From a virus: a stretch of 26,456 bases of DNA. A program made the translations under genes and the position numbers. Below the pieces are notes generated by a model, which ran no database searches, was not told the DNA's origin, and worked only from the letters and a program-made list of their open reading frames with translations. Location of the stretch: positions 1 through 26,456 of IMG/VR virus record IMGVR_UViG_3300032116_001143. One strand, written 5' to 3'. This document shows positions 1,316-6,352 of the stretch, piece by piece. Within the stretch, counting starts at the first letter, position 1. Every line of letters begins with the position of its first letter.

Positions 1316-2671
1316 TTAGGCTGCTTGCTGCGCTGCAAGGATCGGAATCACGCGCTTGACTGGCTCCTTGGGAATTCCATGAACCAGACCAAAAATATCC
1401 TTGCGGGATTCACGGAACTCGCCCTCGATGTAGACCGGCTTGCAGCCCGTCATGTACTCCAGGCCAGCCGAAAAGAAGGGGATGTTGTCTGAATAGCTGG
1501 CGTCACAGCCCGCTTCCCACAATGGGCCATGCAAGAACATACAACTGCCTTGGCAAATCTGTAGCACCGGGCAACTGATGCATTCTTTACGTTGGCTCCA
1601 GTGGGTTGAGGTCTTCATCTTCACGCCTGCCAAGTCATCGAGCTTGCCAATCAGGTGACTCTCACCATTTGGGCCAGTCGATGCAGCGCTCACGTTTTGG
1701 CACGTAAGAACATTGCCATGGAGGTCCACTGCCATGTTGTCTGTCTTGTCCATGCCGCACTTCTGACCAAGGGCGCTGGCTGGCCGAGCGGTCCTCACTG
1801 AATCCACAAAGCCCTTGATTTTCTGACGTGCAATATCAAAGTTACCGACCCGGCCGGTGCGCAATTCATCAAAGGCAGTAGCGCGGTAGCCAATCTGCTC
1901 AGCTTGGGTCTTCAGCGTTGCAGCCATGCCGCCCTCGTCGTAAGGGTCGATGAACGCCCCTTCGCCAATCCTCACATCCTCCCCAAAGCGATCTCGTAGC
2001 CAATTCTGCACAGCAGCGCGGCTCGGGTTGTCTTTGTGCATCATGGCGTTGATGCTGATTCGCCCTTGCGGCTGAAGGCGGCCATACAAGTCCATGATGG
2101 CCGCGCGCTTGTCTGGGTCATCCAGCGGGTCAGCGCCGCGCGCGTGATAGCCCGGGCCATCGTGACTGATGCCAACACCGAAGCCCAGATCATCAAGCCA
2201 TTGGTTTTTTTCTTCATCGAGCAAAGAGCCGTTGGTGATGATGTTGAAGTCAGCATCCGGGTACAACACACGCAGCCGTTCGGCCAGAGGTTTGAGCGTT
2301 TTCCAATAGACGAACGGCTCACCGCCCCAGAATTCGATGCGCTGTGGCGCTTGAGTCAGCGCGCCTGTGAGTTGAGCCACAAACGGTTCAATGTCATCGG
2401 GATTGCTGGATTCGGCATGAGGCACAAAGCGCTGTGAGCAGTAGTTGCACTCGTAGTTGCAACTCAGACCCAGGCTGACCTTGAGCGTCTTGATAACGCC
2501 CTTCAGTCCGGGCTGATCCACCGACACCACAGTGGCGTCACCGTACTGACGCGGCTGCACGGGGGCAACGGGTCGACCATCCTCCCAGGTTAGGCTGCTA
2601 GTTTGGTTGTCGTAGAGCAGGACGGGTTCACTGCCATCTGGCGCTTGGGTTTTGATTCGAAACTGTGACAT
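1316..2671 (-). CDS. Radical SAM/SPASM domain protein, putative peptide-modifying enzyme
   Basis: This 451-residue enzyme has the radical SAM CxxxCxxC motif (Cys71, Cys75, Cys78), the WGGEP SAM-binding motif (115-119), and a C-terminal SPASM domain with Cys305, a GNVLTC segment (Cys324), CxxCx5CxxxC (364, 367, 373, 377) and Cys389. This is the full set for two auxiliary iron-sulfur clusters, as in anaerobic sulfatase-maturating enzymes and RiPP thioether synthases. Such enzymes abstract hydrogen from peptide substrates to install formylglycine, thioether or C-C links. The N-terminal 60 residues are extra; a RiPP recognition element there is untested. The ATG at 2671 is chosen over TTG 2683 because it has GAAAG upstream. 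It is the last gene of a compact unit following three oxygenase-like genes, and the Cys-rich tail fibre upstream is the obvious candidate substrate (inference). Confidence 0.88.
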   Translation of the reverse strand: MSQFRIKTQAPDGSEPVLLYDNQTSSLTWEDGRPVAPVQPRQYGDATVVSVDQPGLKGVIKTLKVSLGLSCNYECNYCSQRFVPHAESSNPDDIEPFVAQLTGALTQAPQRIEFWGGEPFVYWKTLKPLAERLRVLYPDADFNIITNGSLLDEEKNQWLDDLGFGVGISHDGPGYHARGADPLDDPDKRAAIMDLYGRLQPQGRISINAMMHKDNPSRAAVQNWLRDRFGEDVRIGEGAFIDPYDEGGMAATLKTQAEQIGYRATAFDELRTGRVGNFDIARQKIKGFVDSVRTARPASALGQKCGMDKTDNMAVDLHGNVLTCQNVSAASTGPNGESHLIGKLDDLAGVKMKTSTHWSQRKECISCPVLQICQGSCMFLHGPLWEAGCDASYSDNIPFFSAGLEYMTGCKPVYIEGEFRESRKDIFGLVHGIPKEPVKRVIPILAAQQAA

Positions 2672-2679
2672 GGTGTCTT

Positions 2680-3345
2680 TCAAAGATTGACGTATAAATC
2701 GCCGTAGTTGTGAGAAGCAACGCGCAGGGTCACCGCCAGCAAGCTGCGATGCCCTGTGCCATCAAAAGGGTTGGTCTCGTGCCAAACCCGCGAGGGATGC
2801 AGCACCGCTAATCCGGGCGTTGTGTAGATGTACTTTGTCTTTTCCCAAAATGGAAATCCAGCCATCGGTCGTGGGTCTTGCAGCACCAATTCGCCATCGC
2901 CCTTTTCTCGAGTAAGCGTGTCTCTAGATGGGCGGTCTTGGCCGCAGTCCAAGTACAGGCACAGCACATGGTCACAGGTGTGGTGGTAGTGAGGCGGGGT
3001 TCGCATCCCTGGTGTGTAGTGGCCAACAATGCAGCGCGCCACAATGTCCAGATCGTCGGCGTTATTGACGCCGTGGGCATCAAGCAAAAACGCCCGGTAG
3101 GTTGTATCCACCCAACGCCTGAACACATGCCATACCTCTGGAGCGCCAACCTCCTGCTCCGCATCAAACAAGTTGTAATGCCCGCGCAACTTTATGCTCG
3201 TGATGTCTGGCAACTTGTTAACTGGAGGGTTGGCTCGTTTGTAGGCTGCTTTCCCAGTTGAGTACGCCAGCAATTCACTTAACTGGTCCGCGTCGAATGG
3301 CGCATCCAGCGTCAGTATGGGCGTTGGCCAGAGGTACTCAATCAT
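2680..3345 (-). CDS. Putative 2OG-Fe(II) oxygenase (third of three)
   Basis: This 221-residue protein has the layout of 2-oxoglutarate/Fe(II) dioxygenases. There is a proximal metal-binding stretch PPHYHHTCDH (residues 117-126, with His119, His121, His122 and Asp125 as candidate ligands), a strand GELVLQDPRP, and a distal His in PSRVWHETNP (His189). Arg200 or Arg208 in the last core strands could bind the 2OG carboxylate. It resembles the double-stranded beta-helix proteins grouped under TIGR02466 more than the prolyl hydroxylases. The substrate is unknown; hydroxylation of a protein side chain is the default guess. The ATG overlaps the stop of the preceding oxygenase as ATGA, and the radical SAM ATG follows eight bases after its stop, so the proteins are probably made together. 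Confidence 0.68.
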   Translation of the reverse strand: MIEYLWPTPILTLDAPFDADQLSELLAYSTGKAAYKRANPPVNKLPDITSIKLRGHYNLFDAEQEVGAPEVWHVFRRWVDTTYRAFLLDAHGVNNADDLDIVARCIVGHYTPGMRTPPHYHHTCDHVLCLYLDCGQDRPSRDTLTREKGDGELVLQDPRPMAGFPFWEKTKYIYTTPGLAVLHPSRVWHETNPFDGTGHRSLLAVTLRVASHNYGDLYVNL

Positions 3346-3920
3346 GGGACGATCTCGCAGCCAAAGGACACTGCAATCCGAAGCTCAGTGCAAAACCTTG
3401 AAATCGGCCGAGCCGCATGGGCTCGCGTGCCGTCAAACACCACCATCCGATTGGGCTTGACCATGGCGCAATGCTCGATTTCGCCATCGTCGCCCATCAC
3501 GATAAAGTCGCCGCCCCAGTCTTTATCCCACTTCAAAACCGGATACCAAACCACCGACCTAGCCCTGCCTGCAAACTCGGCGGGGAAGTCCCTGTGCAAT
3601 GACGCCTCGTCACCAAAGGTCTGTGCGTTGGCCCAGACTCGGGTGAGTTGGGTGTCGCCAAAGAAGCGCTGCTGAACTCGCTTGGTCACTTCAGCCAGGG
3701 GCCCGCCTTGCGACAAAAAGGCAGCAAGGGTCAGACTTGGGTGCCAGACATGACTGTCGTAGTGGTGTTTATTCGTGCCCGGCAGAACGTAGTTTCGGTG
3801 CCAAAAGGCTGCTGGTGATTTTTCATGAGCACGCCATCCAAACGAAAGGGTCTGGTGCTGAAACCAATCCCTTGTGACCTGCATCAGTTCAGGGTCAACC
3901 AAGTTGTCAACAATGTGCAT
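3342..3920 (-). CDS. 2OG-Fe(II) oxygenase, prolyl-4-hydroxylase-like (second of three)
   Basis: This 192-residue protein carries the clearest dioxygenase signature of the three. His109-Arg-Asp111 form the HxD metal motif in ASLHRDFPAEF, a GGDFIVMGDDGE strand pair follows, the distal His168 lies in GTRAHAARPIS, and Arg181 in LRIAVSF is placed to bind 2-oxoglutarate. The size and order match the P4H-like superfamily, which hydroxylates protein or small-molecule substrates with Fe(II), O2 and 2OG. The start ATG at 3920 has AGAAAGA upstream and overlaps the preceding gene by 14 bases. Neighbouring oxygenases and a radical SAM enzyme suggest a shared modification pathway. The substrate cannot be read from the sequence. 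Confidence 0.82.
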   Translation of the reverse strand: MHIVDNLVDPELMQVTRDWFQHQTLSFGWRAHEKSPAAFWHRNYVLPGTNKHHYDSHVWHPSLTLAAFLSQGGPLAEVTKRVQQRFFGDTQLTRVWANAQTFGDEASLHRDFPAEFAGRARSVVWYPVLKWDKDWGGDFIVMGDDGEIEHCAMVKPNRMVVFDGTRAHAARPISRFCTELRIAVSFGCEIVP

Positions 3921-4515
3921 GGTGAATCTTTCTGGACATATCTAACGGGTTCAAACTGATCTCAAAGTGCAGTTCGACAGAAGGTTCTACGCCGTTGTAA
4001 GGGTGGCTGTGATGCGCCAAGTAACTGGGGAAGATCACGAGCGTCCCAGGCTTGGGATGGATCAGTTCCGACCTCCATCCCTCCCAAGGTAGTTTTCTTG
4101 CGCCGTAAGCACCGCTTGGGTTGACCAGCGCTAGCGCGCCAGCGTAGTTCTGCTGGCACCTATTGGGCTGCGGTGTCCCAGCTATCCAATAGATCGCTGA
4201 TAACTCGGTAGCCTCAACATGCAGCGGAATGAACTGACCGGCCTGAACCACCACCTCGCGCGCAGTCAAGGACAAAGGGGTGCAGCCGTATTCATCAACT
4301 ATGAGCCGCCTGACCTCGTCAGACAACGCAAGGAAGATATCGCCCGACTCGGGCGCAGTGAGGATGTTGCTCACTCCATTGCGTGACCAAGGCATCCCGT
4401 CAAGGTTGTAGCGAGCGTGGCTTTCCAGGGCGCACCTTCGCATCGATTCGCGGGTGGCGTTATCCAACGGAAATTCGCCCTGGTAAACCCGAGCTGAAAA
4501 CAGTTCACGGATCAT
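3907..4515 (-). CDS. 2OG-Fe(II) oxygenase-like protein (first of three), possibly degenerate
   Basis: This 202-residue protein looks like a TIGR02466-type 2OG oxygenase fold. It has FIPLHVEATELSAIYWIAG (His99 and Glu101 as candidate proximal ligands), PGTLVIFPSYLAHHSHPYNG with a distal His (168, 169 or 171), and a final core strand VELHFEISLN. Family members normally have an Arg at the start of that last strand to hold 2-oxoglutarate; here the position reads Val-Glu-Leu-His. It may therefore bind metal without normal 2OG chemistry, or serve as a non-catalytic partner. The C-terminus is His/Cys-rich (KIHHAHC). The ATG overlaps the stop of the Ig-domain gene as ATGA. Confidence 0.6.
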   Translation of the reverse strand: MIRELFSARVYQGEFPLDNATRESMRRCALESHARYNLDGMPWSRNGVSNILTAPESGDIFLALSDEVRRLIVDEYGCTPLSLTAREVVVQAGQFIPLHVEATELSAIYWIAGTPQPNRCQQNYAGALALVNPSGAYGARKLPWEGWRSELIHPKPGTLVIFPSYLAHHSHPYNGVEPSVELHFEISLNPLDMSRKIHHAHC

Positions 4516-5318
4516 GTGATGGCCACCTCAGCATCACTCGCGCCGGGGTAGAACTTAAATCCCGCCTTCAGCCGAACCGCATCACCTGCTTGCATCCCCG
4601 TGGTCAACACCGTCGCCACCGCCTTACCGCCTTGACTGGTGCGGCGCGTGACCGGCAAGAAGCCATTGACCGTTTCCAGATACAGATCGGCATCGCGGGT
4701 GATCGGATTGCCCAGGCCGTCGACCATTTGCAAGTTGAAACTGGCGGGCTCTCCGGCTTTGACCGTTGGGGCGACTGCATCAACTCGGACACTTGGAAAT
4801 TCCATTTCGCGGACATAGCCGGAGAATTGGTATGCGGACTCCTCAATATCCTCAATCGGCAGGCCGTCCACTAAACACTCGCAAGCCCCCTGACCTAAGT
4901 TGACGGTGACAAAACATTCATCAAACGTGCTGTTGGCGAATGGAACATTTAAGCCAACTAAAAAGTTGCCATTCCAGACATGCCGCGAGGCATCTGCTGC
5001 CGAGAACCGGGTGGGCATCGTAAACGTGCTCAATGGAACTGGTGAGCGAAACCGACCAGACAGCCAGTCAAACCCAGCAAGGTAAGCTTGACGCTCTGAC
5101 CAATCCCGCCCAGCCCTTAACTCTCGCGCAGAAAAGAGGACGCTATCTTTGTCTACATAGGGACGAAAAGATTCGTCCCCGATCTCGGGGGCTGAGTTAT
5201 GAATGGCGCGCAAAGCCAGACTCGCTTTAACGGTCTCAGCGGCACGATCAACCACGATGTTGATGTTGTAATCACGCGCTCCAGATAGCCCGGCATTTTT
5301 GACAATATAAAGTTTCAT
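4512..5318 (-). CDS. Ig-like domain protein of the tail/modification unit, function unknown
   Basis: I do not recognise the N-terminal part of this 268-residue protein. It begins MKLYIVKNAGLSGARDYN, contains several aromatic-rich strands (VWNGNFLVGLNVPFANSTF) and has three cysteines, two of them close together in QGACECLVDG. Residues about 176-268 look like a bacterial Ig-like (Big_1/invasin-type) domain: a VxAGEPASFNL strand, VDGLGNPI, TVNGF and GGKAVATVLTTG. Such domains decorate phage tails and bind surfaces. The ATG at 5318 lies 11 bases after the Cys-rich fibre stop and has AAGGGG upstream; the longer reading from 5360 would overlap the fibre gene. It is coupled to the oxygenase genes downstream. 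It could be a virion protein, a chaperone of the fibre or a second modification target. Confidence 0.72.
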   Translation of the reverse strand: MKLYIVKNAGLSGARDYNINIVVDRAAETVKASLALRAIHNSAPEIGDESFRPYVDKDSVLFSARELRAGRDWSERQAYLAGFDWLSGRFRSPVPLSTFTMPTRFSAADASRHVWNGNFLVGLNVPFANSTFDECFVTVNLGQGACECLVDGLPIEDIEESAYQFSGYVREMEFPSVRVDAVAPTVKAGEPASFNLQMVDGLGNPITRDADLYLETVNGFLPVTRRTSQGGKAVATVLTTGMQAGDAVRLKAGFKFYPGASDAEVAIT

Positions 5319-5329
5319 GCCTATGCCCC

Positions 5330-6352
5330 TTAGCAGCAGCCGCAGCAGTTGCCACAACAAGCGCAGTTGCAGTTAGTACGGCAGTTGAAGGCTCCACAGT
5401 TGCAGTTGCGGTAATTGCGGCGGTACTCTCCGCCGCCAATTTCATCGGCACTCAGGTAGTAAGCGTCGTAGTTAAAGCTCACTGAAACAGCGTTATTTGC
5501 GTAGGTGGTTCCCCCAGCGCCGTCATAGGAGCCGCTGTTGTGCCAAGCCGTCTGCCCAATAAGCGTGTACCAAGTCCACCAGTTACCGTTAGGGGGAGTC
5601 CAATATGGATTTCCTTGGCAATTCCCATTGGGGACGTAGCCGTTGCAATTGCTGGCCAAGTCGTCGTAGTACTGATTGCTACGGTTCATCTCCCCCAAGT
5701 CTTGACCATCCGACATCTTGTAGCCCGTGTCACGGGCGTTGTCGCCGGGGCGAGAAGACCGAATGTTCGCGCTGTTGGACATGACGAGATTTCCCGTCAT
5801 CGTGTCGCCCGTCTTCGCAACCCGACTTGATAAGTCGATGTTGACCGTCGCATTTCCTGCTGCGTCAGGACCGGCTCCGTTTACTGACCTCACAAACGCG
5901 GCTGAGTCGTAGCCATCCAACTTGTCGGCGTCAGCGGCTTTGGCAGTAATTCCAAGGTACGTTGTGTTGTGATTGTGCGTGGACGAAGCAAATGCACTCG
6001 CATGCTGACCATCGAGAAAGTCAGCATCCAAACCAGTTCCAGCACCATCAACGGTAAGAAGCTTTGCCAAGACATCGGCAGCGGTATAGGAAGCGGCATT
6101 GAGCTTGGCCGCAAACTGGGAATCGATCCCACTGGACAAGTCCAAGATGAAGCGCCAGTTATCGGGGTTGGTTCCGATCAACTGATAGAGCTTCAATTGA
6201 TCTGTGCGGTAGCAAAGCATCCCGACTTGCTGATTTGTAGTCGGAAAAGTTGTGCCGCTATTGCAAGAAATTCCAGTCTTGTCATTATTCAAAATCTCAA
6301 TGAGCGAATCTGAAAGCGAGCGCGACGACGGAATGTCGGTAAAGTTTTGCAT
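5330..6352 (-). CDS. Tail fibre protein with Cys-rich C-terminus
   Basis: The 340-residue product is a phage tail fibre by its central motifs. GLDADFLDGQHASAF (107-121) and the related DADKLDGYDSAAF (141-153) are typical tail-fibre repeats, and AKTGDTMTGNLVMSN (179-193) is the common pre-tip motif. Residues 230-300 are rich in Asn, Gly, Trp and Tyr, including NGNWWTWYT. The last 24 residues hold 11 cysteines (317, 319, 324, 328, 330, 332, 333, 336, 337, 339, 340), mostly as Asn-Cys or Cys-Cys, after an Arg/Asn-rich linker. That tail is unlike ordinary fibre tips and resembles the core of a modified peptide or a metal-binding tail. The ATG follows the previous stop directly (TAA ATG), with AGGGG upstream. 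The oxygenase and radical SAM genes downstream in the same unit are its likely partners (inference). Confidence 0.85.
   Translation of the reverse strand: MQNFTDIPSSRSLSDSLIEILNNDKTGISCNSGTTFPTTNQQVGMLCYRTDQLKLYQLIGTNPDNWRFILDLSSGIDSQFAAKLNAASYTAADVLAKLLTVDGAGTGLDADFLDGQHASAFASSTHNHNTTYLGITAKAADADKLDGYDSAAFVRSVNGAGPDAAGNATVNIDLSSRVAKTGDTMTGNLVMSNSANIRSSRPGDNARDTGYKMSDGQDLGEMNRSNQYYDDLASNCNGYVPNGNCQGNPYWTPPNGNWWTWYTLIGQTAWHNSGSYDGAGGTTYANNAVSVSFNYDAYYLSADEIGGGEYRRNYRNCNCGAFNCRTNCNCACCGNCCGCC
5333..5416 (-). other. Cys-rich C-terminal tail segment of the fibre (putative modified core)
   Basis: This stretch encodes residues 313-340 of the fibre: 11 Cys, 6 Asn, 3 Gly and 3 Arg, with the pattern NCNC, NC, NCNC, ACC, NCC, GCC. 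The DNA is low in complexity, with TGC/TGT and AAC/AAT codons alternating. The even spacing and near-absence of hydrophobic residues argue against an ordinary folded tip. The features fit a substrate for thioether or formylglycine chemistry, or a metal-binding tail; the sequence cannot decide. Confidence 0.5.

Follow-up and report, generated by a model that had tools for sequence, protein, structure and literature searches.

A C-terminal Asn-Cys tail on phage fibres and its association with a radical SAM/SPASM enzyme, its likely modifier

The window analysed here, a 26,456-base IMG/VR virus record, encodes a phage tail fibre, the structure that makes contact with the bacterium, ending in a Cys-rich Asn-Cys (NC) tail, with a radical SAM (rSAM) enzyme encoded downstream on the same strand. 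Overall, the best explanation, and a likely one, is that the NC tail and the Asn-Cys dyads of the fibre tip are the substrate of this co-encoded enzyme in a RiPP-like maturation of a virion protein, with thioethers as the likeliest product. The features discussed below are as follows.

5330..6352, minus strand: tail fibre protein, 340 aa, identified from its relatives and from matches to PHROG tail fibre entries, strongest over residues 79-131
5333..5416, minus strand: Asn-Cys/Cys-Cys tail, residues 313-340, the proposed substrate array, conserved in relatives
5618..5650, minus strand: a pair of isolated tip-domain Asn-Cys dyads, C236 and C245, suggested as additional sites on the basis of dyad enrichment in distal domains
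4512..5318, minus strand: p268, 268 aa, the usual companion, described from a fold model
3907..4515, minus strand: oxygenase A, PF13759, over the Pfam cut-off
3342..3920, minus strand: oxygenase B, PF13640, over the Pfam cut-off
2680..3345, minus strand: oxygenase C, phrog_81 and a weak PF13759 match under the gathering score
1316..2671, minus strand: radical SAM/SPASM enzyme, from profile matches, invariant Cys and a fold model
2340..5786, minus strand: exchange cassette comprising the tip, NC tail, p268, oxygenases and rSAM start, from DNA comparison with six sister phages

Anatomy and distribution of the Asn-Cys tail

The fibre contains a shaft (residues 1-188), a tip domain (about 189-315) and the NC tail (316-340); by our own reading, the genes upstream of it resemble a siphovirus tail tip. 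The last 28 residues (313-340), NYRNCNCGAFNCRTNCNCACCGNCCGCC, contain 11 Cys, and the remaining 312 contain four; at that rate, the probability of finding at least 11 in 28 is ~3e-14. The original prediction, made from the sequence alone, had described these 28 residues as built of Asn, Cys, Gly, Ala, Arg and little else, in an order of NC and then CC pairs, with almost no hydrophobic residues. Composition and order were both confirmed from the 340-aa ORF sequence, and only four hydrophobic residues (Y, F and two A) were found; the accompanying statement that such a tail cannot form a hydrophobic core is an inference only. The CC pairs at the end of the tail are not Asn-Cys. Outside the tail, the distal C236 and C245 are both Asn-Cys, and the shaft residues C30 and C47 are not.

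C-termini were inspected at 69 loci of fibre relatives and 25 loci of rSAM relatives. An Asn-Cys run was observed to end every complete fibre gene, preceded by a variable domain, with four apparent exceptions described below. Among 79 distinct tails, 451 of 582 Cys are preceded by Asn, and the repeat number varies. Conserved Asn-Cys spacing with variable repeat number is what the original prediction had looked for in homologues, and the case named as refuting it, intact enzymes without the Cys segment, was not found among complete fibre genes. When 185 NC-tailed proteins were clustered by the 120 residues ahead of the tail, 12 groups were obtained, some of them single or possibly spurious. The NC tail is a mobile C-terminal tag that ends several unrelated tip domains. 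Slippage of a DNA repeat was ruled out as its origin, because 181 of the 185 related tails mix synonymous codons of Asn or Cys.

The four apparent exceptions, in L029, L069 and phages JWF and 2-1, carry a non-terminal run that immediately precedes a Hint or Hint-like domain, an arrangement of NC run and Hint-like domain found in seven proteins. The JWF Hint domain (PF05203, above cut-off) starts at residue 308, inside ...NCNCDCNCNCSCFPAGT; the PF05203 match is over the cut-off in L095 and weaker in L029, L069, L156 and L167, and L175 gives no Pfam match. The criteria for a Hint domain, an N-terminal Cys and a TxxH-type block B, are met, with block B present in six of the seven proteins. Hint domains cleave at their first Cys. 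If such cleavage happens here, the NC run would be the mature C-terminus in these proteins too; this is inferred without cleavage data, and is a possible explanation of the exceptions.

Further NC-bearing proteins were observed. At L094:4986-5777 and L112:41-934, the NC run is neither terminal nor next to a Hint domain, as non-terminal runs usually are; it leads into a C-terminal domain common to both proteins (GKIICTKLYQLG.. / SKIICTKLFSLG..) that has no Pfam match. L104, L107, L113, L153, L158 and L169 carry NC tails on small non-fibre-like proteins (67-220 aa, e.g. ...YDDYSTACNCNCNCNCSRGIL), most of which adjoin one to four distant rSAM relatives; L104 additionally encodes a CQTCQGCQ-repeat protein with an NC tail. 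These small proteins may belong to another branch of this system, carried by different phages. L266, a contig of an Acidaminococcus fermentans genome, encodes a 327-aa NC-tailed protein, and no rSAM was found within the 8 kb examined. In the L046 fibre locus, where the tail reads NCNCDRNCGC, the J, p450 and rSAM genes are each split into several ORFs, and this locus could be a decaying prophage or a poor assembly.

The dyad itself is enriched beyond the tail. In the distal region of non-redundant proteins (130 residues ahead of the tail), 116 of 173 Cys are preceded by Asn versus 19 expected, a 6-fold excess. The corresponding numbers are 0 of 31 versus 1.9 expected for the shaft, and 26 of 570 versus 27 expected for the rSAMs of the same loci. 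Asn-Cys therefore appears to be selected across the whole distal tip. The alternative unit NxxC, with Asn at position -3, is disfavoured relative to NC and is not excluded: among tail Cys, Asn is found at -1 in 0.77 and at -3 in 0.67, with 68 Cys having it only at -1 and 43 only at -3.

Association of the tail with a radical SAM gene

A blind DNA pattern scan for NCNCNC[ND]C over IMG/VR, using no gene information, yielded at least 118 loci. The pattern was in frame in 103 of these, and in 88 of the 103 it lay no more than 15 residues from the C-terminus. Of the C-terminal NC tails, 49 had 4 kb or more of sequence downstream, and all 49 of these are followed by an rSAM gene on the same strand, at a distance of 10 to 5300 bases (median 1.3 kb). 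The count was 40 of 40 after removal of loci related to those used to train the rSAM model, a locus being dropped if more than 5% of its 60-mers were common to the training loci. As controls, out-of-frame pattern matches had an rSAM in 1 of 15 cases, and a Ser scan (NSNSNS[ND]S) gave 68 in-frame loci, 4 of them C-terminal, with an rSAM in 0 of 68. Conversely, 133 loci containing a strong rSAM were evaluable, and 130 of them have an NC run upstream. In L112 the run lies on the opposite side of the rSAM; L073 and L092 are rSAM contigs without an NC run, and both are fragments. The association of the NC tail with the rSAM is tight.

The Achromobacter phages JWF and 2-1 contain both NC run and rSAM, and their relative Lumi contains neither in its whole 82.8-kb genome. 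These loci are related by descent, with 141 rSAMs forming 79, 46, 15 and 6 clusters at 90, 70, 50 and 40% identity, and the 49 loci are therefore not 49 independent events. An origin of the pattern in host genomes was rejected, since most matches to this DNA pattern in genome contigs are out of frame or of low complexity; an rSAM was present in one of 52 in-frame genome loci, in a betaproteobacterial MAG.

Tip and enzyme genes were also shown to be exchanged. Six sister phages match the window at 90 to 97% DNA identity as far as base 5787, near fibre residue 189, where the match stops in all six; similarity is regained within the rSAM gene, at points from about 2202 to 2339. The tip, tail, p268, oxygenases and rSAM start were thus exchanged together, and each exchanged tip bears its own NC tail.

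These results bear on the possibility that the tail is unmodified, being metal-binding or cross-linked by disulfides, and that the rSAM and oxygenases act elsewhere, for example on a host surface molecule. In its favour, known proteins coordinate metals through Cys-Cys and Cys-x-Cys motifs, an iron ion is present in the tips of some phages, and direct evidence of modification is lacking. However, this explanation, which we regard as unlikely, leaves unaccounted for the rSAM beside the tail in 49 of 49 loci, the conservation of dyads rather than of Cys alone, and the joint movement of tip and enzymes as a cassette. The original prediction had listed cross-linking and metal binding beside modification; neither metal binding nor plain disulfide cross-linking is excluded. 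Its suggestion that the tail is modified and that the Asn-Cys pairs are the recognition unit of the enzymes is supported, without any chemistry having been measured. Action of the rSAM on the tail is considered very likely, an inference made in the absence of mass spectra or activity data.

The enzyme, its accessory genes and the proposed maturation

The rSAM ORF is listed to 2683 with a TTG start, and homologues begin at MSQF, 2671; the residue numbers used here are those of the 455-aa ORF. The enzyme meets the membership criteria for radical SAM/SPASM proteins, with PF04055 at 32 bits (cut-off 29.5) and the TIGR04085 SPASM model at 33 (cut-off 27), and matches phrog_1802 at 1e-58. Ten Cys are invariant in 28 diverse members, comprising C75/C79/C82 of the RS cluster and seven with SPASM spacing (C309-x13-G-x4-C328, C368-x2-C371-x5-C377-x3-C381, C393), which were assigned to auxiliary cluster (aux) I (C309/C328/C381) and aux II (C368/C371/C377/C393). 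PapB has AC1 bound by C352/C370/C421 and AC2 by C408/C411/C417/C440 (PMC10470005), so that the two enzymes have the same ten-Cys order with nearly equal spacing and three aux-I Cys in both. The criterion of thioether-forming ranthisynthases, an aux I with three Cys, is thus met, the open iron itself being inferred and product data being absent. The PapB equivalog model (NF047865, cut-off 340) is not met by the window enzyme, which scores 50.9 bits. The PapB and QhpD models each match 28 of 28 members, and the anSME model matches 27 of 28.

The AlphaFold model of the enzyme has a mean pLDDT of 92. Its best fold match is CteB (Z 24.4 over 357 residues, 16% identity), followed by ChlB (Z 21.7), anSME (Z 20.8) and TigE (Z 18.7), and the epimerase EpeE is also matched (Z 13.2). 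ChlB and anSME are almost as good matches as CteB, so the chemistry cannot be read from the fold. CteB and SkfB have an open site at an auxiliary cluster, and anSME and SuiB lack one (PMC8326336).

One alternative is that the rSAM oxidises the tail Cys to formylglycine, as an anaerobic sulfatase maturase does, to give an aldehyde-studded reactive tip. In favour of it are the structural closeness of anSME, the match of its model to nearly all members, and the GenBank name of the JWF enzyme, anaerobic sulfatase-maturating. However, both anSME auxiliary clusters are fully Cys-ligated (PMC8326336), and the seven invariant SPASM Cys found here, with three in aux I, do not meet that criterion. CxPxR-type sequences are the sulfatase motif, and the tail lacks one. 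Formylglycine formation is accordingly judged unlikely.

An RRE is an N-terminal winged helix of three strands and three helices; the rSAM model has strands at 7-33 and lacks any helix of at least four residues ahead of residue 95, and no full RRE was seen in this predicted model, its first 60 residues containing strands only. The criterion of a RiPP precursor, a separate short leader-core peptide, is not fulfilled, as the candidate substrate is the C-terminus of a 340-aa fibre in which no leader was seen.

Directly downstream of the fibre, p268, three 2OG-Fe(II) oxygenase-like genes and the rSAM form a same-strand operon, in which neighbouring ORFs, from p268 through the oxygenases to the rSAM, share a few bases. 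The p268 model (pLDDT 92) shows an Ig-like C-terminal domain and an N-terminal domain for which no clear PDB match was obtained; p268 was rejected as an RRE, since only Ig-like matches, to the C-terminal domain, were obtained. In oxygenase A, H99 and H168 are invariant, an acidic residue was not seen as conserved, and no conserved C-terminal Arg was found. In oxygenase B, H109-x-D111, H168 and R181 are invariant in 23 distinct sequences, and only this protein fully meets the 2OG-Fe(II) oxygenase criteria of metal triad and Pfam cut-off. Of 130 loci, 80 have a recognised oxygenase and 91 have p268 between tail and rSAM. The oxygenases were rejected as essential, because 10 of these 130 lack any gene of at least 100 aa in this interval.

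A Pfam search of ten intervening genes identified one further oxygenase and one DctP-type protein, the latter being a solute-binding protein at L094:7145-8086 (E 5.8e-51), on a viral contig where the NC proteins lie to one side of it and the rSAM to the other. In L095:8941-9663, L016:9841-10539, L083 and L093, proteins of ~230-260 aa lie just ahead of the rSAM and share a similar-looking end motif (..FK..R..Q..YF); the two tested had no Pfam match. These proteins possibly replace p268 or an oxygenase.

A second alternative chemistry, also considered unlikely, is epimerisation of backbone carbons by the rSAM, by which alternating D-Asn/L-Cys would form a beta-helix to which the oxygenases add hydroxyls, giving a polytheonamide-like tip. 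A parallel with polytheonamide-type peptides exists, most tails show strict two-residue alternation, EpeE is among the fold matches, and an oxygenase is often recognised. However, no alternation is seen in the isolated Asn-Cys dyads within tip domains, and the ten-Cys SPASM arrangement is the one found in thioether formers.

Thioether formation remains our best single guess at the chemistry, inferred with no product having been seen, and we would not put its chances much above or below even. In this preferred reading, the fibre end would in effect be a RiPP core peptide fused to a virion adhesin. Each Cys thiolate would most likely bind the open iron of aux I, the rSAM would abstract a hydrogen from the Asn preceding that Cys, and the sulphur would be joined to that Asn carbon as a Cys-to-Asn thioether, resulting in a fibre tip that is rigid and cross-linked. 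The 2OG-Fe oxygenases, which are optional, would probably hydroxylate tip residues, perhaps Asn, and p268 may help or cap the tip; both roles are inferred, as is any use of the tip in adsorption. A bolder reading, towards which we lean slightly, is that a dedicated phage maturation cassette builds a cross-linked, non-natural tip from Asn-Cys arrays for host contact, is swapped as a host-range module, and would bring RiPP-type chemistry into the virion.

Significance and comparison with known systems

No rSAM maturation of phage fibres was found in the literature searched, which was limited to open-licence papers. If the proposal is true, it would provide a role for unexplained phage radical SAM genes (phrog_1802), the adhesin tips of many environmental phages would differ from what the gene sequence alone would make, and structure prediction, host-range and receptor studies would be affected. 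The system is also a possible source of enzymes that cross-link any protein carrying a short C-terminal tag. The claim is directly testable in culture with JWF and 2-1.

How does the proposed system compare with known radical SAM maturases? The phage radical SAM proteins of phrog_1802 have a domain annotation only, and the entry shows no link to fibre tails. The sulfatase maturase anSME is similar in fold, but differs in its fully Cys-ligated auxiliary clusters and in modifying one sulfatase active-site residue. CteB, the SCIFF maturase, is the closest solved fold and has an auxiliary cluster with an open site, but it contains an N-terminal RRE, acts on a leader-bearing peptide and is only 16% identical. 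QhpD, the quinohemoprotein amine dehydrogenase maturase, resembles the proposal in being an rSAM/SPASM enzyme that modifies Cys within a larger protein; the substrate of QhpD is a cellular enzyme subunit with Cys-Asp/Glu links, not a virion adhesin or an Asn-Cys array. The ranthipeptide maturases PapB, which produces freyrasin, and NxxcB have, like the window enzyme, an rSAM core and a SPASM domain, with the PapB aux I bound by three Cys. In likeness to the proposed substrate, freyrasin has Cys joined to a side-chain carbon of Asp and NxxcA to one of Asn, the latter as a Cys-Asn C-beta thioether (PMC8326336). Unlike the PapB and NxxcB substrates, the one proposed for the window enzyme is a phage fibre C-terminus with no leader, export or protease visible, in which Asn stands immediately before Cys.
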